A stretch of DNA of 64,000 nt from Niameybacter massiliensis (GTDB taxonomy: Bacteria; Bacillota; Clostridia; Lachnospirales; Cellulosilyticaceae). The stretch lies in NCBI RefSeq assembly GCF_001282685.1, contig NZ_LN875035.1, positions 3,290,411 to 3,354,410 of the forward strand, written 5' to 3'. The translations under genes and the position numbers were made by a program. Shown one piece after another: positions 14,950-40,844 of the stretch (the first letter of the stretch is position 1; each line of letters opens with the position of its first letter). Under the pieces are notes generated by a model. That model had not been told where the DNA came from and ran no database searches. It saw nothing but the letters and a program-made list of their open reading frames with translations.

Positions 14950-15205
14950 AAAAAAAGCTCCATCCCTCCGAAAAGGGACGAAGCTTGACTCCGCGGTACC
15001 ACCCAAATTTTTATACTAAGTATAAACACTTTAATAGCTATAACGCGCAACCGATACTTCCTACTTCTTTCAATCTAGATGAAAAGGATTCAAAAGTACT
15101 GCTCCAATGTGAAATTCACTTTTCTACAGGGCCAAAAGGTGCTTACAGCCGGTGACACCTTCTCTCTTTATGGTTCTAAAAAAGCTACTTTGCATTTTCC
15201 TAGCA
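14950..15205 (-). promoter_or_regulatory. T-box riboswitch, phenylalanine-specific
   Basis: The minus-strand leader of pheS carries the T-box core TGGGTGGTACCGCGG (15005-14991), a terminator (14985-14951) ending in seven T, and a long Stem I. Its specifier region reads GTGAATTTCACATTGG and includes a UUC Phe codon. Uncharged tRNA-Phe would pair with the specifier and T-box bulge and favour antitermination. Specificity follows from both the codon and the downstream gene. Confidence 0.93.
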
Positions 15206-15224
15206 TTTCATACTATTATATCAA

Positions 15225-28616: not shown

Positions 28617-30167
28617 TTAGTGTTTAAAATGTCTCATACCTGTAAAGACCATTGCAATTCCAGCTTCGTTACATGCTTTAATAGAATCTTCATCACGAAT
28701 AGAACCACCTGGTTGAATAATTGCTGTAATACCTGCAGCAGCTGCTGCCTTTACACAATCATCAAATGGGAAGAATGCATCTGATGCTAAAACGCTACCT
28801 TTTACACCTTCTTCTCCTAAGAATTCCATACCATGATCGATAGCTTGTGTCGTTGCCCAAATACGGTTTGTTTGACCGCCACCCATTCCAACTGACATGC
28901 CATCTTTTGCAAGTGCAATACCATTAGATTTTACATGTTTTACAAGCTTCCATGCAAAGTGTAAATCTTCCATCTCTTTTTCAGAAGGTGTACGCTCTGT
29001 TACTATTTTAAGCTCTTCTTCTATTAAAAGTTCTAAGTCTTTTTGTTGAACAATTAATCCACCATCTACTTTTTTCATTGTTAATGCATGTGGATCAGAG
29101 TATGTAATATTTTCAAGTTTTAATACACGTAAGTTTTTCTTAAGTTTAAATACTTCAAGTGCCTCTTCTTCGTAACCTGGCGCAATAACAATTTCAAAGA
29201 AGATTTTACACATTTCTTCTGCTGTTGCTTTATCAATTATTTGGTTTGTTACAATAATACCACCAAAGATAGAAACAGGATCTGCTGTATAAGCTTTTTG
29301 GTAGGCTTCAAGTACATTGTTTCCTACACCAACACCGCATGGATTAGCATGTTTAACTGCTACTACAGCTGGTTCACTAAATTCACGAAGTAGTTCAAGT
29401 GCACCATTTGCATCATTAATATTGTTATATGAAAGTTCTTTACCATTTAATTGTACTGCATCAGCAAGTGTTCCTTTTGTTTTTCCAACTTCTTTATAGA
29501 ACGCTGCACCTTGATGAGGATTTTCTCCGTAGCGCATATCTTGAACTTTTTCAAATGTCATTGTAAATGTATTTGGTAAACTATAATCACCACGTTGTTC
29601 TCTTAAGTAGTTAGCAATCATTGTATCGTAGTTTGCTGTGTGTTCAAATACTTTAGTTGCAAGATAGAAGTTTGTATCTACACTTACTTTGTTATTTGCT
29701 CTTAATTCCTCTAATACAACAGCGTAATCAGTAGGGTCTACTACTACTGTTACATCATGATTATTTTTTGCTGCTGAACGAAGCATAGTTGGACCACCAA
29801 TATCAATGTTTTCTATTGCTTCTTCTAATTTAACGCCTTCTTTAAGGATTGTTTGTTTGAAAGGATAAAGGTTAACTACTACAAGATCAATATTTGAAAG
29901 GCCTAATTCTTGCATTTGTTTTTGATGTTCTTCGTTATCACGAATATTAAGAAGTCCAGCATGAATAGCAGGATGAAGTGTTTTAACACGACCATCTAAA
30001 CATTCTGGAAAACCTGTTACATCAGAAATACCAATTACTTCTACGCCTGCGTTTTGTAAAACATTAAAAGTTCCACCTGTTGAAATAATCTCTACGCCTA
30101 AACTTACAAGCTCTTTAGCAAATTCTACGATTCCTGTTTTGTCTGATACACTAATTAATGCTCTCAT
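28617..30167 (-). CDS. purH: Bifunctional AICAR transformylase / IMP cyclohydrolase
   Basis: Last two steps of de novo IMP synthesis. 516 residues, full length. The N-terminal cyclohydrolase (about 1-195) starts [20 protein letters not shown] and has STGGT. The C-terminal transformylase has [36 protein letters not shown]-like [10 protein letters not shown] and [11 protein letters not shown]. The ATG at 30167 follows AAAGGAGAG. It is alone here, with other pur genes elsewhere, and is under a ZTP riboswitch. Confidence 0.96.
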
Positions 30168-30220: not shown

Positions 30221-30330
30221 AAAAAGACCGTCTGGACGCTACTTATATACTATGTAGTGCCCAGACGGTCGACTTTCCATTTCTATACTCCCCGCAGTTC
30301 ATTCTGCTAATCCGTCAGTCATATAGAAAC
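30221..30330 (-). promoter_or_regulatory. ZTP (pfl) riboswitch
   Basis: The minus-strand leader of purH has TGACTGACGG near its start and the conserved ACCGTCTGGGCA (30270-30259) at the 3' side, variants of the ZTP consensus (GUGACUGGCG, CCGCCUGGGCA). The latter is also the 5' arm of a terminator ending at about 30220 with TTTTTATT (GCGTCCAGACGGTC is the 3' arm). ZTP or ZMP accumulates when 10-formyl-THF is short; binding should block termination and raise purH. Confidence 0.9.
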
Positions 30331-30362
30331 TTTATTTAATTTTAAATTCTACTAGTTAGCTA

Positions 30363-33553: not shown

Positions 33554-34306
33554 TTAGCCAAATCTTCCTGTGATATAGTCTTCTGTTCTTTGATCTCTTG
33601 GTTGGTCAAAGATTTTATCTGTTGCATCAACTTCAACTAATTCCCCTAAAAGGAAGAATGCTGTTTTATCAGAAATACGTGCTGCTTGTTGCATGTTATG
33701 TGTAACAATAACAATTGTGTATTGTTTTTTAAGTTCATTAATGAGATCTTCGATTTTTAATGTTGAAATTGGATCAAGAGCTGATGTTGGTTCATCCATA
33801 AGTAAGATTTCTGGATTCATTGCAATACTACGTGCAATACAGATACGTTGTTGTTGCCCACCAGATAAACTTGTTGCACTTTTACGTAAATGATCTTTTA
33901 CTTCATCCCAAATAGCTGCTTTTCTTAAACTATCTTCAACTATTTTGTCTAATTCACTTTTCTTTTTGATTCCTTGCATACGTGGTCCGTAAGCAATATT
34001 ATCATAAATACTCATTGGGAATGGATTTGGTTTTTGGAATACCATTCCTACTTTTTTTCTAAGTTCAATAGGGTTCATATTAAAAATATCTTGCCCCTTA
34101 AACTTAATGCTACCATCAACCTTTGTGCCTTCAACTAAATCACTCATACGATTTAAGATACGAAGAAATGTAGATTTACCACAACCTGAAGGTCCAATAA
34201 AAGCTAATACTTCATTCTTTTTTACTTCTAAATTTATATTTTTGAGCGCCTTGAAATCTCCATAGTAGAAAGATAAATCCGATACGCTTATAATGTTATT
34301 TTCCAT
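33554..34306 (-). CDS. pstB: Phosphate ABC transporter ATPase PstB
   Basis: 250 residues. Walker [13 protein letters not shown], signature LSGGQQQR, Walker [13 protein letters not shown], switch His in IVTHNMQQA. Powers phosphate import by PstC/PstA. Its start overlaps the end of pstA by 11 nt. Sequence and length are canonical. Confidence 0.97.
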
Positions 34307-35168
34307 GTTTCATCTTCCTTCCAATTACATAAGTTAATAAGTTCAGTGTAAGTACTACTAATAATAGAACAATCGCTGTTCCATAAGCTTCTTCTAACGA
34401 AATACCTTCTTTAGCTAACATATAAAGGTGTACTGATAAAGTCCTACCTGATTCCATAACATTTGAAGGTACTCTAAATACCATACCTGCTGTTAAGTAA
34501 ATTGCTGCTGTTTCACCAATGATACGTCCTGTACTAAATACAATCCCTGTTAAAATACCTGGTACTGCACTAGGTAATACAACTTTCATGATTGTTGCAA
34601 ATTTTGATGCCCCAAGTGCAAGTGAACCTTCTCTATAGCTTAAAGGTACTGTTTTTAAAGCTTCCTCTGTAGTTTTTACAACTGTTGGAAGGATCATAAG
34701 TGCTACTGTTAAGCCCCCTGCAAGGATACTGTAGCCCATTTTGAGTTGTGTTACAAAGAACATCATTCCAAATAACCCAAATAGAATAGAAGGAACAGCC
34801 GCTAAACATTCAATAGCAAAACGTAAGCTCTTTACGAATTTTGATTGTTTTGCATATTCACTTAGATAAATAGATGTTCCCATTCCAACTGGTACTGCAA
34901 TTACAAGCCCCATAAGTACCATATATATAGTTGTTATAATAGCTGGCATAAGTCCTGCTATATTAACATGACCTATCCCCTTCATAAAGATATAAGATAA
35001 GATCCAAATAAGCATTGCAAATGTAGAGAATGCAATTAAACCAATAACACCATAAATAATTTTTTCTTTTGTTGAAACATATTTAAATGGATTATTATTC
35101 TTTTTCGCTGGTTTTTGTTCAGCTACTGGAGTTTCCTGTACCGTATTACCACTAAGCTTTGCTTCCAC
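34296..35168 (-). CDS. pstA: Phosphate ABC transporter permease PstA
   Basis: 290 residues, six helices after a cytosolic N-terminal stretch of about 30 residues rich in Lys and Asn. The EAA loop reads [29 protein letters not shown], typical of PstA. Pairs with PstC in the membrane. Overlaps the end of pstC by 17 nt, indicating translational coupling. Confidence 0.95.
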
Positions 35169-36024
35169 GGCCTTCCCTCCTTTCTGAATAATTATTGATT
35201 ATATGTGTAATTACGTTGATTGCAATAATAAGGATGAATAAAATCATACCTGTTGCAAAAAGTGCTTGTTGATGTATACCTGAAGCATAACCCATTTCGA
35301 TTGCGATATTCGCTGTAAGCGTTCTTACTGGGTCAGTAATGCTTGTTGGAAGTAATGCTGTATTTCCTGCTACTAGGATAACAGCCATTGTTTCACCAAG
35401 TGCACGTCCTGTTGCTAAAATAATACCTGCTAAAGTTCCTGATTTAGCTGCTTTCAGCTGAACTTTGAATATATATTGTAATTTACTTGCGCCAAGTGCT
35501 AACGCACCTTCTTTAAATTCATTTGGTACTGCTCTTAAACTTACTTCTGTCATACGAATAACTGTAGGAAGTACCATTAATGCTAAGATGAAAATAACAG
35601 CAAGTAAGCTACTTCCTGCTCCTTTTCCACCAAAGAATTTATTAATCATTGGTACAACTACCATAAGCCCCCAGAATCCATAAATAACTGAAGGAATCCC
35701 TGCTAATAAGTCTACTGCTGCTGAAAGAATTTTTGCGAGTTTACTAGGAAGAATTTCTACTAAGACAATTGCTGTACAAATTCCAACTATAATGGCTACA
35801 AGCATAGCCCCTGCCGTACCATAAAGGCTGGAAACGAGCATTGGGAAAATCCCAAAGATTTCACCTGAAGGCATCCAATTGGTGCCGGTTAAAAATTTCC
35901 AAAGACTAGTATGTTGAAAGAATGGAAGTCCATTGACTACGATATAGAATCCCATAAATGCAACTACTGAGATTGTAAGAGCTGCAAAACACCAGAACAC
36001 TTTCTTCATTATTCTATCCATCAT
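35152..36024 (-). CDS. pstC: Phosphate ABC transporter permease PstC
   Basis: About 290 residues, six helices. EAA loop EFKEGALALGASKLQYIFKVQLKAA; ATGRALGETMAVILVAGN follows. Several starts are possible (GTG 36030, ATG 36024, ATG 36021); AAGGTG lies just in front, so 36024 or 36021 is preferred. It begins about 50 nt after pstS. Confidence 0.95.
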   Translation of the reverse strand: MMDRIMKKVFWCFAALTISVVAFMGFYIVVNGLPFFQHTSLWKFLTGTNWMPSGEIFGIFPMLVSSLYGTAGAMLVAIIVGICTAIVLVEILPSKLAKILSAAVDLLAGIPSVIYGFWGLMVVVPMINKFFGGKGAGSSLLAVIFILALMVLPTVIRMTEVSLRAVPNEFKEGALALGASKLQYIFKVQLKAAKSGTLAGIILATGRALGETMAVILVAGNTALLPTSITDPVRTLTANIAIEMGYASGIHQQALFATGMILFILIIAINVITHIINNYSERREGRGSKA

Positions 36025-36078
36025 GATCACCTTATTAATTATAATGGATAAGAGGCTAAAAGCCCCTTATCATATTTT

Positions 36079-36987
36079 CTATTTAACTGAGATATATTTT
36101 TCGCTAACGATTTCTTGACCTTCATCACCTAAGATAAAGTCTACGAATTCTTTTGTTACTTCTGGAGCCTCTTTACTTGTTAAGATAAGAAGTGGTCTAG
36201 AAATACTGAATGAGCCATCTTTTACACTTTCAACTGTTGGTTCTACACCATCAACACTGATTGCTTTTACTGTTTCATCAATGAATCCTAAAGATACGAA
36301 ACCTACTGCACCTTCTTTAGAAGCAACTGTTGCTTTCATTGTACCGTTACCTTCTGCGATAAGAGCACCTTGTGACATAGAAGAAACTTTTTTACCATCG
36401 ATTTCTTTTTCAAGTTTAAGGATTTCTTCGAAAGCACCTCTTGTACCAGAACCATCTTCACGAGATACTACGATGATTGGTTGATCAGTCCCACCAACTT
36501 CACTCCAGTTAGTAACTGTTCCTTCAAAGATATCTTTAATTTGATCTTTTGTTAAATCTGTTACACCATTTGTTGGGTTTACTACTACTGCAATACCATC
36601 GTATGCAATTGTTGTAACTTCAAAGTTTTCATTTTCTTCTTCTGCTTTAAGTTCACGTGATACCATACCGATATCTGCTGTTCCATCATGTGCTGCTTTA
36701 ACACCCGCAGATGAACCTACACCTTGAACTTCTACTACTACTTCTGGTTGAACTTCTTTATATTTTTCTGCTAAGCTTTCCATTGGTACGGCTACTGTTG
36801 TTGAACCAACTGCTACAACTTTACCGCCTGCTTTTTGTGTATCTTCTTTTTGTGTATCAGAAGCTTGTGTATTTTCAGTAGCTGAACCTGTTGGTGCTGG
36901 TGTACTTGTTGTACCACCTGAACATCCTGTTAACATTGCCATTCCAATTGTTGCTACGCCTAATATTCTTAAAAATTTATTTTTCAT
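36079..36987 (-). CDS. pstS: Phosphate-binding lipoprotein PstS
   Basis: 302 residues. Lipobox LTGC gives a lipidated Cys after a 21-residue signal, then a Thr/Ser/Pro linker and the periplasmic-binding fold from about residue 53 (VVAVGSTTVAVPMESLAEKY). The phosphate site includes SREDGSGTRGAF. Captures phosphate outside the membrane for PstCA. First gene of the operon; Pho-box repeats lie about 70 bp upstream. Confidence 0.95.
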   Translation of the reverse strand: MKNKFLRILGVATIGMAMLTGCSGGTTSTPAPTGSATENTQASDTQKEDTQKAGGKVVAVGSTTVAVPMESLAEKYKEVQPEVVVEVQGVGSSAGVKAAHDGTADIGMVSRELKAEEENENFEVTTIAYDGIAVVVNPTNGVTDLTKDQIKDIFEGTVTNWSEVGGTDQPIIVVSREDGSGTRGAFEEILKLEKEIDGKKVSSMSQGALIAEGNGTMKATVASKEGAVGFVSLGFIDETVKAISVDGVEPTVESVKDGSFSISRPLLILTSKEAPEVTKEFVDFILGDEGQEIVSEKYISVK

Positions 36988-37058
36988 TTTTTATTGCCCC
37001 CTTATGTAATTTACGAGATTAAGGATACCCCCCTAATGTTCAAAACATATTTGAGTTA

Positions 37059-37075
37059 TGTTAAATCTATGTTAA
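37059..37075 (-). promoter_or_regulatory. Pho box (PhoP-binding repeats)
   Basis: Two TTAACA hexamers on the minus strand (37075-37070 and 37064-37059), exactly 11 bp apart, as for Bacillus PhoP sites (TTNACA repeats). A weaker TTAAAG lies just upstream. Position before pstS fits induction by phosphate starvation. Confidence 0.65.
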
Positions 37076-37232: not shown

Positions 37233-38441
37233 ATGCTAGGATTAGCTTTAGAAGGCGGCGGTGCAAAAGGAGCCTTCCACATTGGTGCTATTAAGGCCTT
37301 TCTTGAAAATGGCTATGAATTTGATGGTGTTGTTGGAACATCTATAGGTGCTTTTAACGGTGCTTTAGTTTCACAAGGCGACTTTAATAAACTCTATGAG
37401 CTTTGGATTAACTTAGAGCCCTCTACCTTATTTGATATAGATGATGGGTATATGGGAAAGATGGTTCAGAGTGAACTCTCTTTAGATATGATTAAGTATT
37501 TGAAAAACCGTGCAAAAGCATTTATTGAAAATGGCGGTATTGATACTGGAAAGCTAAGAAATGTTTTAGATCAACTTATAGATGAAGATAAACTTCGTAC
37601 CTCTAACCGAGATTTTGGAATGGTTACTGTATCTATTCCTGACTTTAAACCTGTAGAAATTTATAAAGAACTTATTCCTGATGGAAAAATTAAAGATTAT
37701 ATTATGGCAAGTGCCAGTTTTCCAGGCTTTAAACTTTGCCCTCTAGATGGGAAGTACTATATAGATGGAGGCATTCATGATAATTGTCCTGTCAATCTAC
37801 TTCTTAGAAAAGGATATGATAAGATTATTGCTATACGCACTTCAAGCAGTGATAAATTTTCAAAGCTCGACCCACATAATGCTGAGATTATTAATGTTTT
37901 ACCTTCAGAAGATTTGGGTACAACCCTCTTATTTACTAATGAGCTTATTAAGCAAAATATTAAATTAGGCTATTATGATGCTTTAAAAGTAATCCGTGGC
38001 CTAAAAGGACAGCGGTACTATATTGAACCTGTAGATGATGAAATAATTTGGAATAAGCTTCAAACGCTCTCCGATGAGATTATTTTTGAAATTGGTAAGC
38101 ATCTTAAATTGCCCGAAATGAATAGTAAACGTATGCTCTTTGAGAAAATCATTCCCACCTTTGCTAATCTACTTAAGCTTTCCCCTACTGCAACTTACCA
38201 AGATATTCTCATTGCACTTTTAGAACCTCTTGCTACACGTTGCTCTGTTGAGAAATATGAAATTTATACACTTTCTTCTTTTATTACGACTATAGAAGAG
38301 CATCTCTTGAAGATTTCTCCTTCTTATCGTAAGAATCCTCATCGTTTTAAGATTAAACGATTACCTCTTGCTAAACTTCACCATCCTAGCACAGAAGAAC
38401 TTGCCTATATTATGTTGGAATCCTTTTATAAAGAATTATAG
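37233..38441 (+). CDS. Patatin-like phospholipase
   Basis: About 402 residues. The N-terminal patatin domain has GGGAKGAFHIG (oxyanion loop), GTSIG (G-x-S-x-G nucleophile elbow) and DGG in YYIDGGIHDNCP, which supplies the catalytic Asp. A probable lipid acyl hydrolase, cytosolic or membrane-associated (no signal peptide). The C-terminal 150 residues are helical and unassigned. The ATG at 37233 is preceded by GGAG; the in-frame ATG at 37218 lacks a ribosome site. Confidence 0.85.
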   Translation: MLGLALEGGGAKGAFHIGAIKAFLENGYEFDGVVGTSIGAFNGALVSQGDFNKLYELWINLEPSTLFDIDDGYMGKMVQSELSLDMIKYLKNRAKAFIENGGIDTGKLRNVLDQLIDEDKLRTSNRDFGMVTVSIPDFKPVEIYKELIPDGKIKDYIMASASFPGFKLCPLDGKYYIDGGIHDNCPVNLLLRKGYDKIIAIRTSSSDKFSKLDPHNAEIINVLPSEDLGTTLLFTNELIKQNIKLGYYDALKVIRGLKGQRYYIEPVDDEIIWNKLQTLSDEIIFEIGKHLKLPEMNSKRMLFEKIIPTFANLLKLSPTATYQDILIALLEPLATRCSVEKYEIYTLSSFITTIEEHLLKISPSYRKNPHRFKIKRLPLAKLHHPSTEELAYIMLESFYKEL

Positions 38442-38447
38442 ATATAA

Positions 38448-38600
38448 AAAAAGACGCCCTTGGGGAAGGCGTCTTTTTGTCCGTTTATATATTCATACAA
38501 ACTGAAAAAGGGATAAATAATATGGGGAGATTTTAATCTCAGAGTGAGATATGTAGCTTTAATTGTTAGGGAAGATTAGGCTACATATCATTCGCTCATG
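38448..38600 (-). ncRNA. Small-RNA repeat, copy 1 of 4
   Basis: Minus-strand unit: a 9-bp hairpin (38588-38580 with 38557-38549) with a 22-nt loop holding CTTCCC; then GAGATTAAAATCTCCCC; ATTTATCCC; and a terminator stem GACGCC/GGCGTC (38453-38473) with a T run. No open frame is conserved between the copies. The terminator also serves the patatin gene on the plus strand. Copies 1 and 2 share a further 19-nt upstream block ending TTCAAGAG. Confidence 0.6.
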
Positions 38601-38632
38601 TGACTATATTAATCCATACTCTTGAATAAGTT

Positions 38633-38649
38633 ATGAAGATAATCTTCAT
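38633..38649. promoter_or_regulatory. Perfect 17-bp palindrome upstream of sRNA copy 1
   Basis: ATGAAGAT-A-ATCTTCAT (8+1+8). It lies where a promoter for the minus-strand unit would be expected; copy 2 keeps only one arm (CTTCAT). Confidence 0.35.
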
Positions 38650-38683
38650 TTTTCAAAAAAAATATGAAATCCTTTTCACAAAA

Positions 38684-38838
38684 AAAAGACGCCCTTGGGG
38701 AAGGCGTCTTTTGATCCGTTTATATATTGATACAAACTGAAAAAGGGATAAATAATATGGGGAGATTTTAATCTCAGAGTGAGATCTATAGCTATAACTG
38801 TTAGGGAAGATTATGCTATACATCATCTGCTCATGTAA
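38684..38838 (-). ncRNA. Small-RNA repeat, copy 2 of 4
   Basis: Same layout as copy 1. The hairpin stem reads TATAGC/GCTATA (38820-38815 with 38792-38787) instead of GTAGC/GCTAC, a compensatory G-C to A-T change at 38788/38819 compared with 38553/38584. The CTTCCC loop, CTCCCC, TATCCC and the terminator (38688-38708) are conserved. Confidence 0.6.
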
Positions 38839-38940
38839 CTATCATATCTTATCCTCTTGAATAAGTTATGAAGACAATTTTCTTTTCTAGATAAAATATG
38901 AAATTATTTTCATAAGCATTTCTAGTTCTTATTTTACTCA

Positions 38941-39088
38941 AAAAAAAGACGCCTTGGGGATGGCGCCTTCTTTTTTTTCCGTTTATATTATACAAACTGA
39001 AAAAGGGATAATAATATGGGGAGATTTTAATTTTAGAGCGAGTTATGTAGCTTCAACTGTTAGGGAAGATTTCTGCTACATCTCTTCT
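38941..39088 (-). ncRNA. Small-RNA repeat, copy 3 of 4
   Basis: Nearly identical to copy 4 over about 145 nt, starting AATATATGAAGAGAAG. Hairpin ATGTAGC/GCTACAT with CTTCCC in the loop. The terminator pair has one change, G-U in the minus-strand RNA but A-C on the plus strand, which supports the minus strand as the transcribed one. A TAATAT -10 lies at 39100-39095. Confidence 0.6.
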
Positions 39089-39210
39089 CTTCATATATTA
39101 TTTTAAAGGCTTACAGTGAATTTGATTTGAAGGAAATTTTAATAAATTAACAACTTTCTTAGTCCATAAAATGAATTACATAATACTCTCTAAACAATAA
39201 TATAAAGCAA

Positions 39211-39237
39211 AAAAGGCAGAACCAAAGTTCTGCCTTT
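39211..39237 (-). terminator. Terminator of the cold-shock gene
   Basis: AAAGGCAGAACTTTGGTTCTGCCTTTTTT on the minus strand, read as a 9-bp stem with a T run, just after the stop. Confidence 0.85.
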
Positions 39238-39255
39238 AAAATAACTGTTGAGTTA

Positions 39256-39456
39256 TTATGCTTTTGTAACGTTCTCTGCTTGAGCGCCACGTGGACCCTT
39301 AGTAAGGTCGAAGTTTACTTTTTGTCCTTCTTCAAGAGATTTGAATCCATCTCCTTGAATTGCTGAGAAATGTACGAATACGTCATCTCCATCTTCTCTT
39401 GAAATAAATCCAAAACCTTTTTCTGCGTTAAACCATTTAACTGTACCTGTCATCAT
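39256..39456 (-). CDS. Cold-shock protein, CspA family
   Basis: 66 residues, a single OB-fold. RNP1 KGFGFI and RNP2 VFVHF bind single-stranded RNA or DNA. Acts as an RNA chaperone at low temperature or in growth. The start has two adjacent ATGs after AGGAGGT. It has a leader of about 150 nt, a feature of cold-regulated csp genes. Flanked by small-RNA copies 3 and 4, which may be linked to it by duplication or function. Confidence 0.95.
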
Positions 39457-39641
39457 GTGCGGTACCTCCTAATATGAATTTCTGTAATCTACGTAAACAA
39501 AAAAAATTCACATAATATTACAGATTATATTAAGTAACATATATAATCTCTAATAACATGTGAATCTCAATTAACACGTGAAGCGATATAGCTGACTACT
39601 GAATACTTTTATAGTATACGCCGTTTCTTTACAAAAGTCAA
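39457..39641 (-). promoter_or_regulatory. csp promoter and long 5' leader
   Basis: Minus strand TTGACT (39641-39636), 17 nt, TATACT (39618-39613). The leader runs about 150 nt to the ATG and contains related segments TTCACGTGTTA and TTCACATGTTA that could support alternative folds. Cold-responsive leaders of this length are known for csp genes; a temperature response here is inference. Confidence 0.6.
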
Positions 39642-39713
39642 GGATAAATTTATAATAACTTACTTTTATTGAAGTTCCTAATCTATAATTAATAAAGTTA
39701 CCTTTCTCTCAAA

Positions 39714-39861
39714 ACAAAAAAGACGCCTTGGGGATGGCGTCTTCTTTGTTTCCGTTTATATTATACAAACTGAAAAAGGGATAATAATATGGGGAGATTT
39801 TAATTTTAGAGCGAGTTATGTAGCTTCAACTGTTAGGGAAGATTTCTGCTACATCTCTTCT
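39714..39861 (-). ncRNA. Small-RNA repeat, copy 4 of 4
   Basis: Best-defined copy: TTGTTA (39896-39891), 17 nt, TAATAT (39873-39868), then a unit of about 148 nt with hairpin ATGTAGC/GCTACAT (CTTCCC loop), CTCCCC, TATCCC and a GACGCC/GGCGTC terminator at 39722-39741. It lies upstream of csp on the same strand but ends before the csp promoter. Confidence 0.65.
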
Positions 39862-39944
39862 CTTCATATATTATTATGCCTGTAATTTTTTAACAAAATA
39901 TGACGCCCACTCTAATAAATTAAGAACTTTTTATAAAGAAATCT

Positions 39945-40844
39945 TTATGCTGTTTTTTTAGATAGTTGCCATATTAATATACCACTTACCACAATCATAA
40001 AACCTGTAGTTAATATACTTCCTTCCATTCCAAAAGGCCCACCATTCCATATAGAAGCCTCTCCTATGTGAGTTTTAAATAAGCTAACATCTAATGCATT
40101 TCCACTCACATTGATTCCAAATACATTTCCTTGAAAGAGATTCCAAGCTGTATGGAATCCACATGCACCCCATAGATTTTCCTCTTTTAAGACTAACAGA
40201 CACAGCATCAATCCACACATCAAAATATTAATTAAACTGATAGCAGTGACACCACTATTCCCTAAATGTAATAACGAGAAAACAACTGAGGAGAAGATAA
40301 TCCCTTTATAAACACCATACTTTACAGCAATAGATTGAAACATATAGCCACGTACTAATATCTCTTCTGCAGCTCCTTGAATAATCCAAGCCGTAAGAAT
40401 GAGGCCAAAAAGTATTACGCCATTAATACCTATAGGAAGATTAGATACAGTTAATGTTATTTCACCTTTAAACTGTAAAATACTTATTACTAATAAAACT
40501 CCAATAACAGCTATAGCCATTCCTTTTAAATAACTTGATATAACATGATTTTTGAAGAATCCAAGACTCTCTACTTTACGCTTCTCTATATAAGAAACAT
40601 AAAGTAAAATACCTCCTCCAGCTATTGCAAAGGAAATAGCATATTGCATGTATTGTAAATAAATAAGGCTAAGTTCTGTTTCATTATTTCCAAAGATAGT
40701 AACTCCTATAATAGATGCTACTCCTATTCCTACGGAAAGCAATATTGTAAATATAAAAGGCATTAAAATAATGGAAACAATACTTGCTCCTTTGCCAACC
40801 TTAGCTGCTTCTAACATTTTGTTATCTTCAAGCATATTACTCAC
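39945..40844 (-). CDS. CPBP-family intramembrane metalloprotease (CAAX protease-like)
   Basis: 299 residues, about eight helices. The core motif AAEEILVRGYMFQ (motif 1, Glu-Glu-x3-Arg), FSLLHLGN (motif 2 His) and AWNLFQG-like HTAWNLFQGN (motif 3) are present, so it should be catalytically competent. Family members process prenylated or peptide substrates, some giving bacteriocin immunity; the substrate here is unknown. It starts 23 nt after yajC and may be cotranscribed with tgt-yajC. Confidence 0.85.
   Translation of the reverse strand: MSNMLEDNKMLEAAKVGKGASIVSIILMPFIFTILLSVGIGVASIIGVTIFGNNETELSLIYLQYMQYAISFAIAGGGILLYVSYIEKRKVESLGFFKNHVISSYLKGMAIAVIGVLLVISILQFKGEITLTVSNLPIGINGVILFGLILTAWIIQGAAEEILVRGYMFQSIAVKYGVYKGIIFSSVVFSLLHLGNSGVTAISLINILMCGLMLCLLVLKEENLWGACGFHTAWNLFQGNVFGINVSGNALDVSLFKTHIGEASIWNGGPFGMEGSILTTGFMIVVSGILIWQLSKKTA

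Follow-up and report, generated by a model that had tools for sequence, protein, structure and literature searches.

A candidate family of C-rich small RNAs in relatives of Cellulosilyticum and Epulopiscium

Results

Four similar units on the minus strand of the window (the whole 64,000-nt stretch of DNA analysed here) appear to represent an uncatalogued RNA family common to relatives of Cellulosilyticum and the giant bacterium Epulopiscium. Judged by its sequence, it is a new family of a known kind, the base-pairing C-rich sRNAs, and we consider it probable that its members are LhrC-like, multi-site C-rich sRNAs that are controlled by a response regulator and block Shine-Dalgarno sequences. 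The sequence evidence presented below supports the family, its structure and strand, its promoter motif and its syntenic locus. The units are listed with their scores under R2, the broader of two covariance models.

38446..38599, minus strand: sRNA unit c1, predicted start to T-run (alignment A1; R2 76.7 bits)
38680..38834, minus strand: sRNA unit c2 (alignment A1; R2 77.3 bits)
38938..39093, minus strand: sRNA unit c3, 99% identical with c4 over 131 nt, weakest promoter (R2 91.2 bits)
39714..39866, minus strand: sRNA unit c4, copy closest to tgt-yajC (R2 90 bits)

Genome self-search and alignment both find the four minus-strand units, with 5' hairpin and C-rich segments, that the first-pass annotation had described. 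A 205-nt c4 query matched exactly four places in its own genome at 83-100% identity (c4 against c3, c2 and c1: 98, 83 and 86%), beyond which a looser DNA search gave only weak matches of E 0.36 or worse; c3 and c4 look recently duplicated. From 5' to 3', a unit comprises a 5' hairpin with a CUUCCC loop, a linker AAUCUCCCCAUAUUA(U)UUAUCCC, a middle hairpin with arms CAGUUUGU..AUAAACGG and a terminator with a C-rich loop (UCCCCA). The CTTCCC, CTCCCC and TATCCC segments singled out earlier have the same letters in all four copies (alignment A1), and each 3' end indeed carries its own GACGCC/GGCGTC-type hairpin followed by T's; absent from that description were a fourth C-rich site, the terminator loop UCCCC, and the conserved middle hairpin. 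The compensatory stem change reported for c2 is real at one pair, G-C (38553/38584) becoming A-U (38788/38819), and is accompanied by a broken pair in the same stem (A-U to G-G). The A-U to G-U change in the c3 terminator, read from alignment and RNAfold, keeps pairing on the minus strand only, as had been claimed.

Relatives and subtypes

A DNA search brought up the first homologues in a set of 24 genomes from the same family. Searching related genomes with a covariance model, as the first-pass annotation had suggested, was rewarding: R2 found 19 units in 16 of the 24 genomes (60-108 bits), the same 16 that were found with the first model, R1. The remaining four R2 hits in these genomes, at 27-37.1 bits, were plain terminators on inspection of their places. 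Across the order sample, R2 matched 17 of 392 genomes at E 0.001, namely the 16 of the same family plus G249 (36.8 bits), and R1 matched 21 of 295 at E 0.01, five of them outside the family, with a narrow margin between its lowest member (45.5 bits) and the outside match in G249 (42.8 bits). The G249 match (L059) has CUCUCCCC ahead of a terminator and no visible middle hairpin. Weaker model matches were discarded, those at L060-L063 (outside the family) and at L050, L053, L058, L207 and L211 (inside it) because they look like ordinary terminators and that at L051 because it looks like a chance match. Among 84,980 species genomes, a DNA pattern gave 13 loci: six in Cellulosilyticum, three in Epulopiscium MAGs, one in Sporanaerobium hydrogeniformans and three in Clostridia MAGs. 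Since the units are conserved in other genomes, a chance origin is excluded. Only the window's genome has more than one copy (four); each of the 15 other member genomes has one.

Three subtypes can be distinguished. The window units, subtype A, have four C-rich sites in all four copies. Subtype B (Cellulosilyticum and others) has a short 5' hairpin, CUCCCC and a terminator-loop CCCC, and subtype C (three Epulopiscium MAGs; L064, L068, L069) has a 5' loop UCCCC(C), CUCCC and UAUCCC, with no C's in the terminator. Both keep only part of the C-rich set of subtype A, and the C-rich arm shifts position among subtypes, with at least two arms in each of the 19 units. On inspection by eye of both strands, no ORF in the units is kept between subtypes; as an encoded peptide, the ATG-AAC-GGA frames of subtype B and the ATG-GGG-AGA frames of the other strand were rejected, neither being kept in the window copies (by eye).

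Genomic locus

Two genes mark the surroundings of the cluster.

39256..39456, minus strand: cspA-type cold-shock gene between c4 and c3 (recognition and annotated plasmid matches)
40868..41266, minus strand: yajC-like gene, marker of the conserved locus (named by recognition)

The gene order in the window, which we take by recognition to be aroC, tgt, yajC, a CPBP-type gene, c4, cspA, c3, c2 and c1, puts the cluster at the same place as the relatives' locus. There, the unit lies downstream of a yajC-like gene in 10 of the 13 loci (with one gene between in L071), and in eight the opposite flank has a lysA-like gene pointing towards it, once after another gene; L072 starts near a contig end, so that only its lysA side is visible. 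At these loci yajC, lysA and uppP are presumed identities by recognition, and tgt was confirmed by search. Two of the 13 lie elsewhere: L069 near an uppP-like gene, and L064 (1-945, Epulopiscium MAG) immediately after a fragment of a histidine kinase and a regulator gene of OmpR type whose best NCBIfam match, VanR, is below cut-off. Outside the 13 loci, G001 has its unit 5.8 kb from tgt. In G019 (L225), which by the models has no unit, yajC is followed directly by a terminator and lysA. This terminator has a loop other than CCCC, so that what the terminator does and what the loop does can be told apart. The stretches read after tgt in G009, G011, G012, G013, G014 and G021 contain no unit.

The earlier description of the units as arranged around a cold-shock gene looks incidental: the relatives' unit is usually found downstream of yajC, and no cspA was noticed by eye among the ORFs around the 13 units. 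The cspA-type gene is probably not part of the system. Its plasmid search matched 568 records, and of the 20 listed, 19 are annotated cold-shock genes and one (H1) is unannotated over the same query stretch. The 5' region of the gene (39208-39544, minus strand) nearly reaches the Rfam cspA thermoregulator score, at 73.5 bits against 78.

Structure and strand

The conserved hairpins of the window units are as follows.

38448..38478, minus strand: c1 terminator hairpin with CCCC loop (terminator scan and RNAfold)
38684..38712, minus strand: c2 terminator hairpin with CCCC loop (terminator scan and RNAfold)
38941..38974, minus strand: c3 terminator hairpin with CCCC loop (RNAfold and hand pair count)
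39715..39748, minus strand: c4 terminator hairpin with CCCC loop (RNAfold and hand pair count)
39752..39772 (c4), 38979-38999 (c3), 38716-38739 (c2) and 38481-38504 (c1), minus strand: middle hairpin (RNAfold and pair count)

Of the four terminators, those of c1 and c2 appear in the terminator scan as minus-strand hits and that of c4 as a plus-strand hit only; that of c3 is missing from the list. With the minus-strand sequence, RNAfold predicts all four hairpins. Because the MAFFT alignments A2, A3, A6 and A7 had either the terminators of the window copies or the middle hairpin of c1/c2 out of place, pairs were counted on sub-alignments. For the terminator (A8), 10 of the 19 units were used, with all window copies, L071, L008 (a duplicate of L076) and subtype C (three units) left out; in these 10 rows 94.5% of cells are paired and CCCC is invariant in the loop. 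Two-sided changes affect 26 cells, where shuffles average 8.6, and none of 500 shuffles has as high a covariation score; two-sided changes affect 7 of 11 pairs, a count matched by 84 of 500 shuffles, and pair types show no excess, 486 of 500 shuffles reaching the observed number. A hand count of the terminator (without c1, c2, L071, subtype C and one duplicate) gave five G-U cells versus no A-C cells out of 132.

The middle hairpin was counted in A5 (10 rows used, the rest being identical or differing in length; seven distinct), where 95.2% of cells pair versus 34-57% when slid. Six of its nine pairs vary, all by one-sided G-U/A-U exchange that would give A-C on the other strand; there are no two-sided changes among the seven distinct rows, and the covariation score is matched by 181 of 500 shuffles. 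In the short subtype, the 5' hairpin (A9, 10 of the 12 subtype B rows) is 98.9% paired, with covariation matched by 17 of 500 shuffles. From the initial alignment, which was imperfect, RNAalifold recovered the terminator only, with 8 of 12 pairs compensated. When the rows were combined (A10, 16 rows), pairing held for 88.9% of cells and no shuffle of 500 matched the covariation score. The region from AAUCUCCC through the middle hairpin is strongly conserved.

Promoters and candidate regulators

A predicted promoter or, for c3, a promoter-like region precedes each window unit.

38606..38637, minus strand: c1 promoter, TTCATA-N5-TTCAAG-N9-TAATAT (score 3.7, third best window site)
38841..38872, minus strand: c2 promoter, TTCATA-N5-TTCAAG-N9-TATGAT (score 4.1, second best window site)
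39100..39131, minus strand: c3 promoter-like region, TTCAAA-N5-TTCACT-N9-TAAAAT (read from sequence)
39873..39904, minus strand: c4 promoter, GTCATA-N5-TTAAAA-N9-CATAAT (score 17.5, top window site)

The units are preceded by direct repeats that recur every 11 bp, in their usual form TTCAW..-TTCATA-N5-TTAAWA, and stop 9 bp short of the -10, a geometry typical of OmpR/PhoB-family regulators. The unit promoters carry a response-regulator-like repeat motif, from which we infer control by such a regulator. Both strands of the 64-kb window were scanned with a matrix trained on 15 units from other genomes (effective sample 4.1 sequences; -10 and register chosen by eye). At 17.5, the c4 promoter tops all 1,596,560 background positions (maximum 8.6); background sequence reaches the c2 and c1 scores five to six times per Mb, and the c3 promoter was not recovered, being absent from the 14 window sites listed.

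Among the 23 OmpR-type domains in G000, only the upstream region of L098 passes p<0.05 with the matrix from other genomes (0.0093, uncorrected for 23 tests); when the matrix includes the window copies, L100 (0.040) and L106 (0.025) pass beside L098 (0.011). L098 is an OmpR-family regulator gene adjoining an ftsH-like gene, with a similar site at its own promoter, and the 25 NCBIfam matches shown for the regulator are all below cut-off (MtrA, YycF, VanR, PieR and BaeR first). Ten orthologue promoters were scored, from 19 near-full-length orthologues of which seven were missed by the start-codon pattern; the best site falls in the same register in eight (fractions 0.011 to 0.091) and does not in two. 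One genome (G015) has the sRNA without a close L098 orthologue, and five (G008, G009, G011, G012 and G019) have the orthologue without the sRNA. An L098-type protein as the putative regulator of the sRNA is a lead, not a result. Most of the 12 regions printed from upstream of the OmpR-family regulator gene (L119-L137) share a conserved, autoregulatory-looking promoter, CTTTTCACTTTCTTCATA-N9-TATAAT.

As a variant of the main proposal, the sRNA might belong to the phosphate (Pho) regulon and not to that of another two-component system. About 1.5 kb separates c1 from the pst genes (33554-36987), and pstS promoters of the family share the geometry, with TTAAC-type half-sites that repeat after 11 bp and lie 9 bp ahead of the -10 (5 of 19 pstS loci by pattern, more by eye). 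We hold this variant to be somewhat unlikely, given that the half-sites differ (TTCATA/TTAAWA for the sRNA, TTAACA/TTAACA for pstS), that the window's pstS promoter does not stand out with the sRNA matrix (a fraction of 0.23 of background upstreams reaches its score) and that relatives keep pstS elsewhere, for instance 1.8 Mb off (G001) or on a separate contig (G018, G023). PhoB control was accordingly set aside: the geometry is alike, the half-sites are other and the sRNA matrix is not supportive.

The pstS promoter of the window (37044-37075, minus strand) is itself Pho-box-like, TTAACA-N5-TTAACA-N9-TATGTT, with similar sites before pstS in several relatives.

Discussion

Under the main proposal, each unit would be transcribed independently into a trans-acting regulatory RNA of about 150 nt, switched on when an OmpR/PhoB-type response regulator binds the 11-bp direct repeats beside the -10. 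Up to four C-rich arms (the 5' loop CUUCCC, single-stranded CUCCCC and UAUCCC, and the terminator loop UCCCC) would be exposed and would pair with G-rich Shine-Dalgarno regions of target mRNAs, blocking translation as LhrC does in Listeria; the four copies in the window's genome would raise the dose. We infer each of these steps, namely transcription, response-regulator control, target pairing and repression. What stands of the earlier suggestion of a multicopy translation-repressing sRNA is the multicopy, C-rich, minus-strand family, with its promoter, covarying terminator and cross-genus conservation; the repressing role, through Shine-Dalgarno pairing, is suggested only by resemblance to LhrC and RsaE. 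Target prediction with the C-rich sRNA, put forward earlier as a way to find mRNA partners, did no better than shuffled controls over 653 start regions (about 17.5% of the genome, plus the window): the best duplex, at -30.1 kcal/mol, was matched by 17 of 150 shuffled queries, and, averaged over all regions, the sRNA scored 1.5 sd better than its shuffled versions. The top target, a permease-like gene with two-site pairing, failed both shuffles and conservation, the gene having no match at E<=1e-40 in 23 other genomes.

The units have the sequence traits of base-pairing C-rich sRNAs of Firmicutes: their own promoter, their own intrinsic terminator and exposed C-rich sites. As the first-pass annotation had sensed in recognising no named family, no Rfam 15 family reaches its cut-off on the units, nor does any above-cut-off match touch a unit in the loci of eight relatives. 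A permissive scan matches the units best to Phe_leader, in the 3' halves (26-34 bits, cut-off 55, E 0.002 to 0.09), and we take these matches to reflect shared terminator features. RsaE/RoxS of Staphylococcus and Bacillus is a low-GC sRNA whose UCCC/C-rich loop is thought to bind Shine-Dalgarno regions; it resembles the window units in this loop and differs in architecture, and its Rfam model has no match listed in the window or the eight relatives' loci. Streptococcal csRNAs, several small sRNAs per genome, are controlled by CiaR, an OmpR-type regulator. They are like the present units in number, with response-regulator-like repeats here set against that OmpR-type control; the sole match to their Rfam model (RF02379) is on the plus strand, at 24.7 bits against a gathering cut-off of 57. 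Rfam includes an LhrC model, for which no match was listed by cmscan of 38400-39950 (up to E 10) or of the eight relatives' loci (up to E 1).

The multicopy arrangement recalls LhrC1-5 of Listeria monocytogenes (PMC4132741). According to that study, LhrC requires LisRK and carries UCCC in loop A, the linker and the terminator loop, any of which can bind target mRNA, the C-rich arm being a known mRNA-binding motif of several low-GC sRNAs (PMC4132741). The two-component control of the LhrC promoter is paralleled by the response-regulator-like repeats of the window units, for which Shine-Dalgarno blocking of the LhrC type is predicted. Unlike LhrC, the window units have an extra middle hairpin, and the family occurs singly in the 15 other member genomes. 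The units share the LhrC design without detected homology, which looks like convergence on repeated UCCC arms, a terminator loop used as an arm and a response-regulator-like promoter.

Other readings of the units were weighed against this LhrC-like one. The conserved linker and middle hairpin exceed the length that a seed needs and the target prediction was not significant, as might be expected of an RNA that works mainly by binding a protein (ribosomal or RNA-binding) and not by mRNA pairing; we think this unlikely, as what recurs inside every unit is the C-rich arm, the known mRNA-binding motif of several low-GC sRNAs (PMC4132741). In the plus-strand sequence the C-rich segments appear as GGGGA/GGGA, each unit having some four GGA motifs, and with the c4 terminator listed on that strand the units could be imagined as a sponge for a CsrA-type protein. 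Such a sponge is very improbable, since the promoter motif, the terminator at the unit's 3' end and the wobble pairs all fit the minus strand and the scan, which ends at 39990, lists no terminator on the plus strand past c4; we reject it on the strand evidence of promoter matrix and wobble pairs. We give hardly any credence to functionless decayed repeats or mobile terminator elements, even with a tandem array in one genome and the recent look of the c3/c4 duplication: covariation and synteny disfavour decay, the changes being compensatory, the promoter conserved and the unit kept in single copy at one locus across genera, downstream of yajC in 10 of 13 named loci.

A bolder extension of the LhrC-like proposal, tentative and on balance doubtful, is that this is a hitherto undescribed core sRNA of the lineage to which Cellulosilyticum and Epulopiscium belong, with an ftsH-linked system of the OmpR family in the role that LisRK has for LhrC. 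A strongly conserved core of ~45 nt would have been retained as the C-rich arms moved among hairpin loop, linker and terminator loop in the three subtypes, with the ftsH-linked two-component system as driver and envelope stress as a guess at the signal. If true, this would be a case of parallel evolution of an sRNA regulon alongside LisRK-LhrC, with giant Epulopiscium-type cells among its carriers. Among the open-licence literature matches listed for Cellulosilyticum, Epulopiscium, Lachnospiraceae/C. lentocellum sRNAs and sibling CU-rich sRNAs, none describes the family in its listing or opening abstract lines, a result too narrow to prove novelty in print; the bacterial family, for which those matches describe no sRNA, would gain a well-conserved one.

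At gathering scores, the only Rfam matches in the window are two elements away from the units. One is a T-box leader at 14971-15210 (minus strand, 125 bits), and the other is a ZTP riboswitch at 30252-30332 (minus strand, 55 bits), directly upstream of a purH-like gene (28617-30167, named by recognition).
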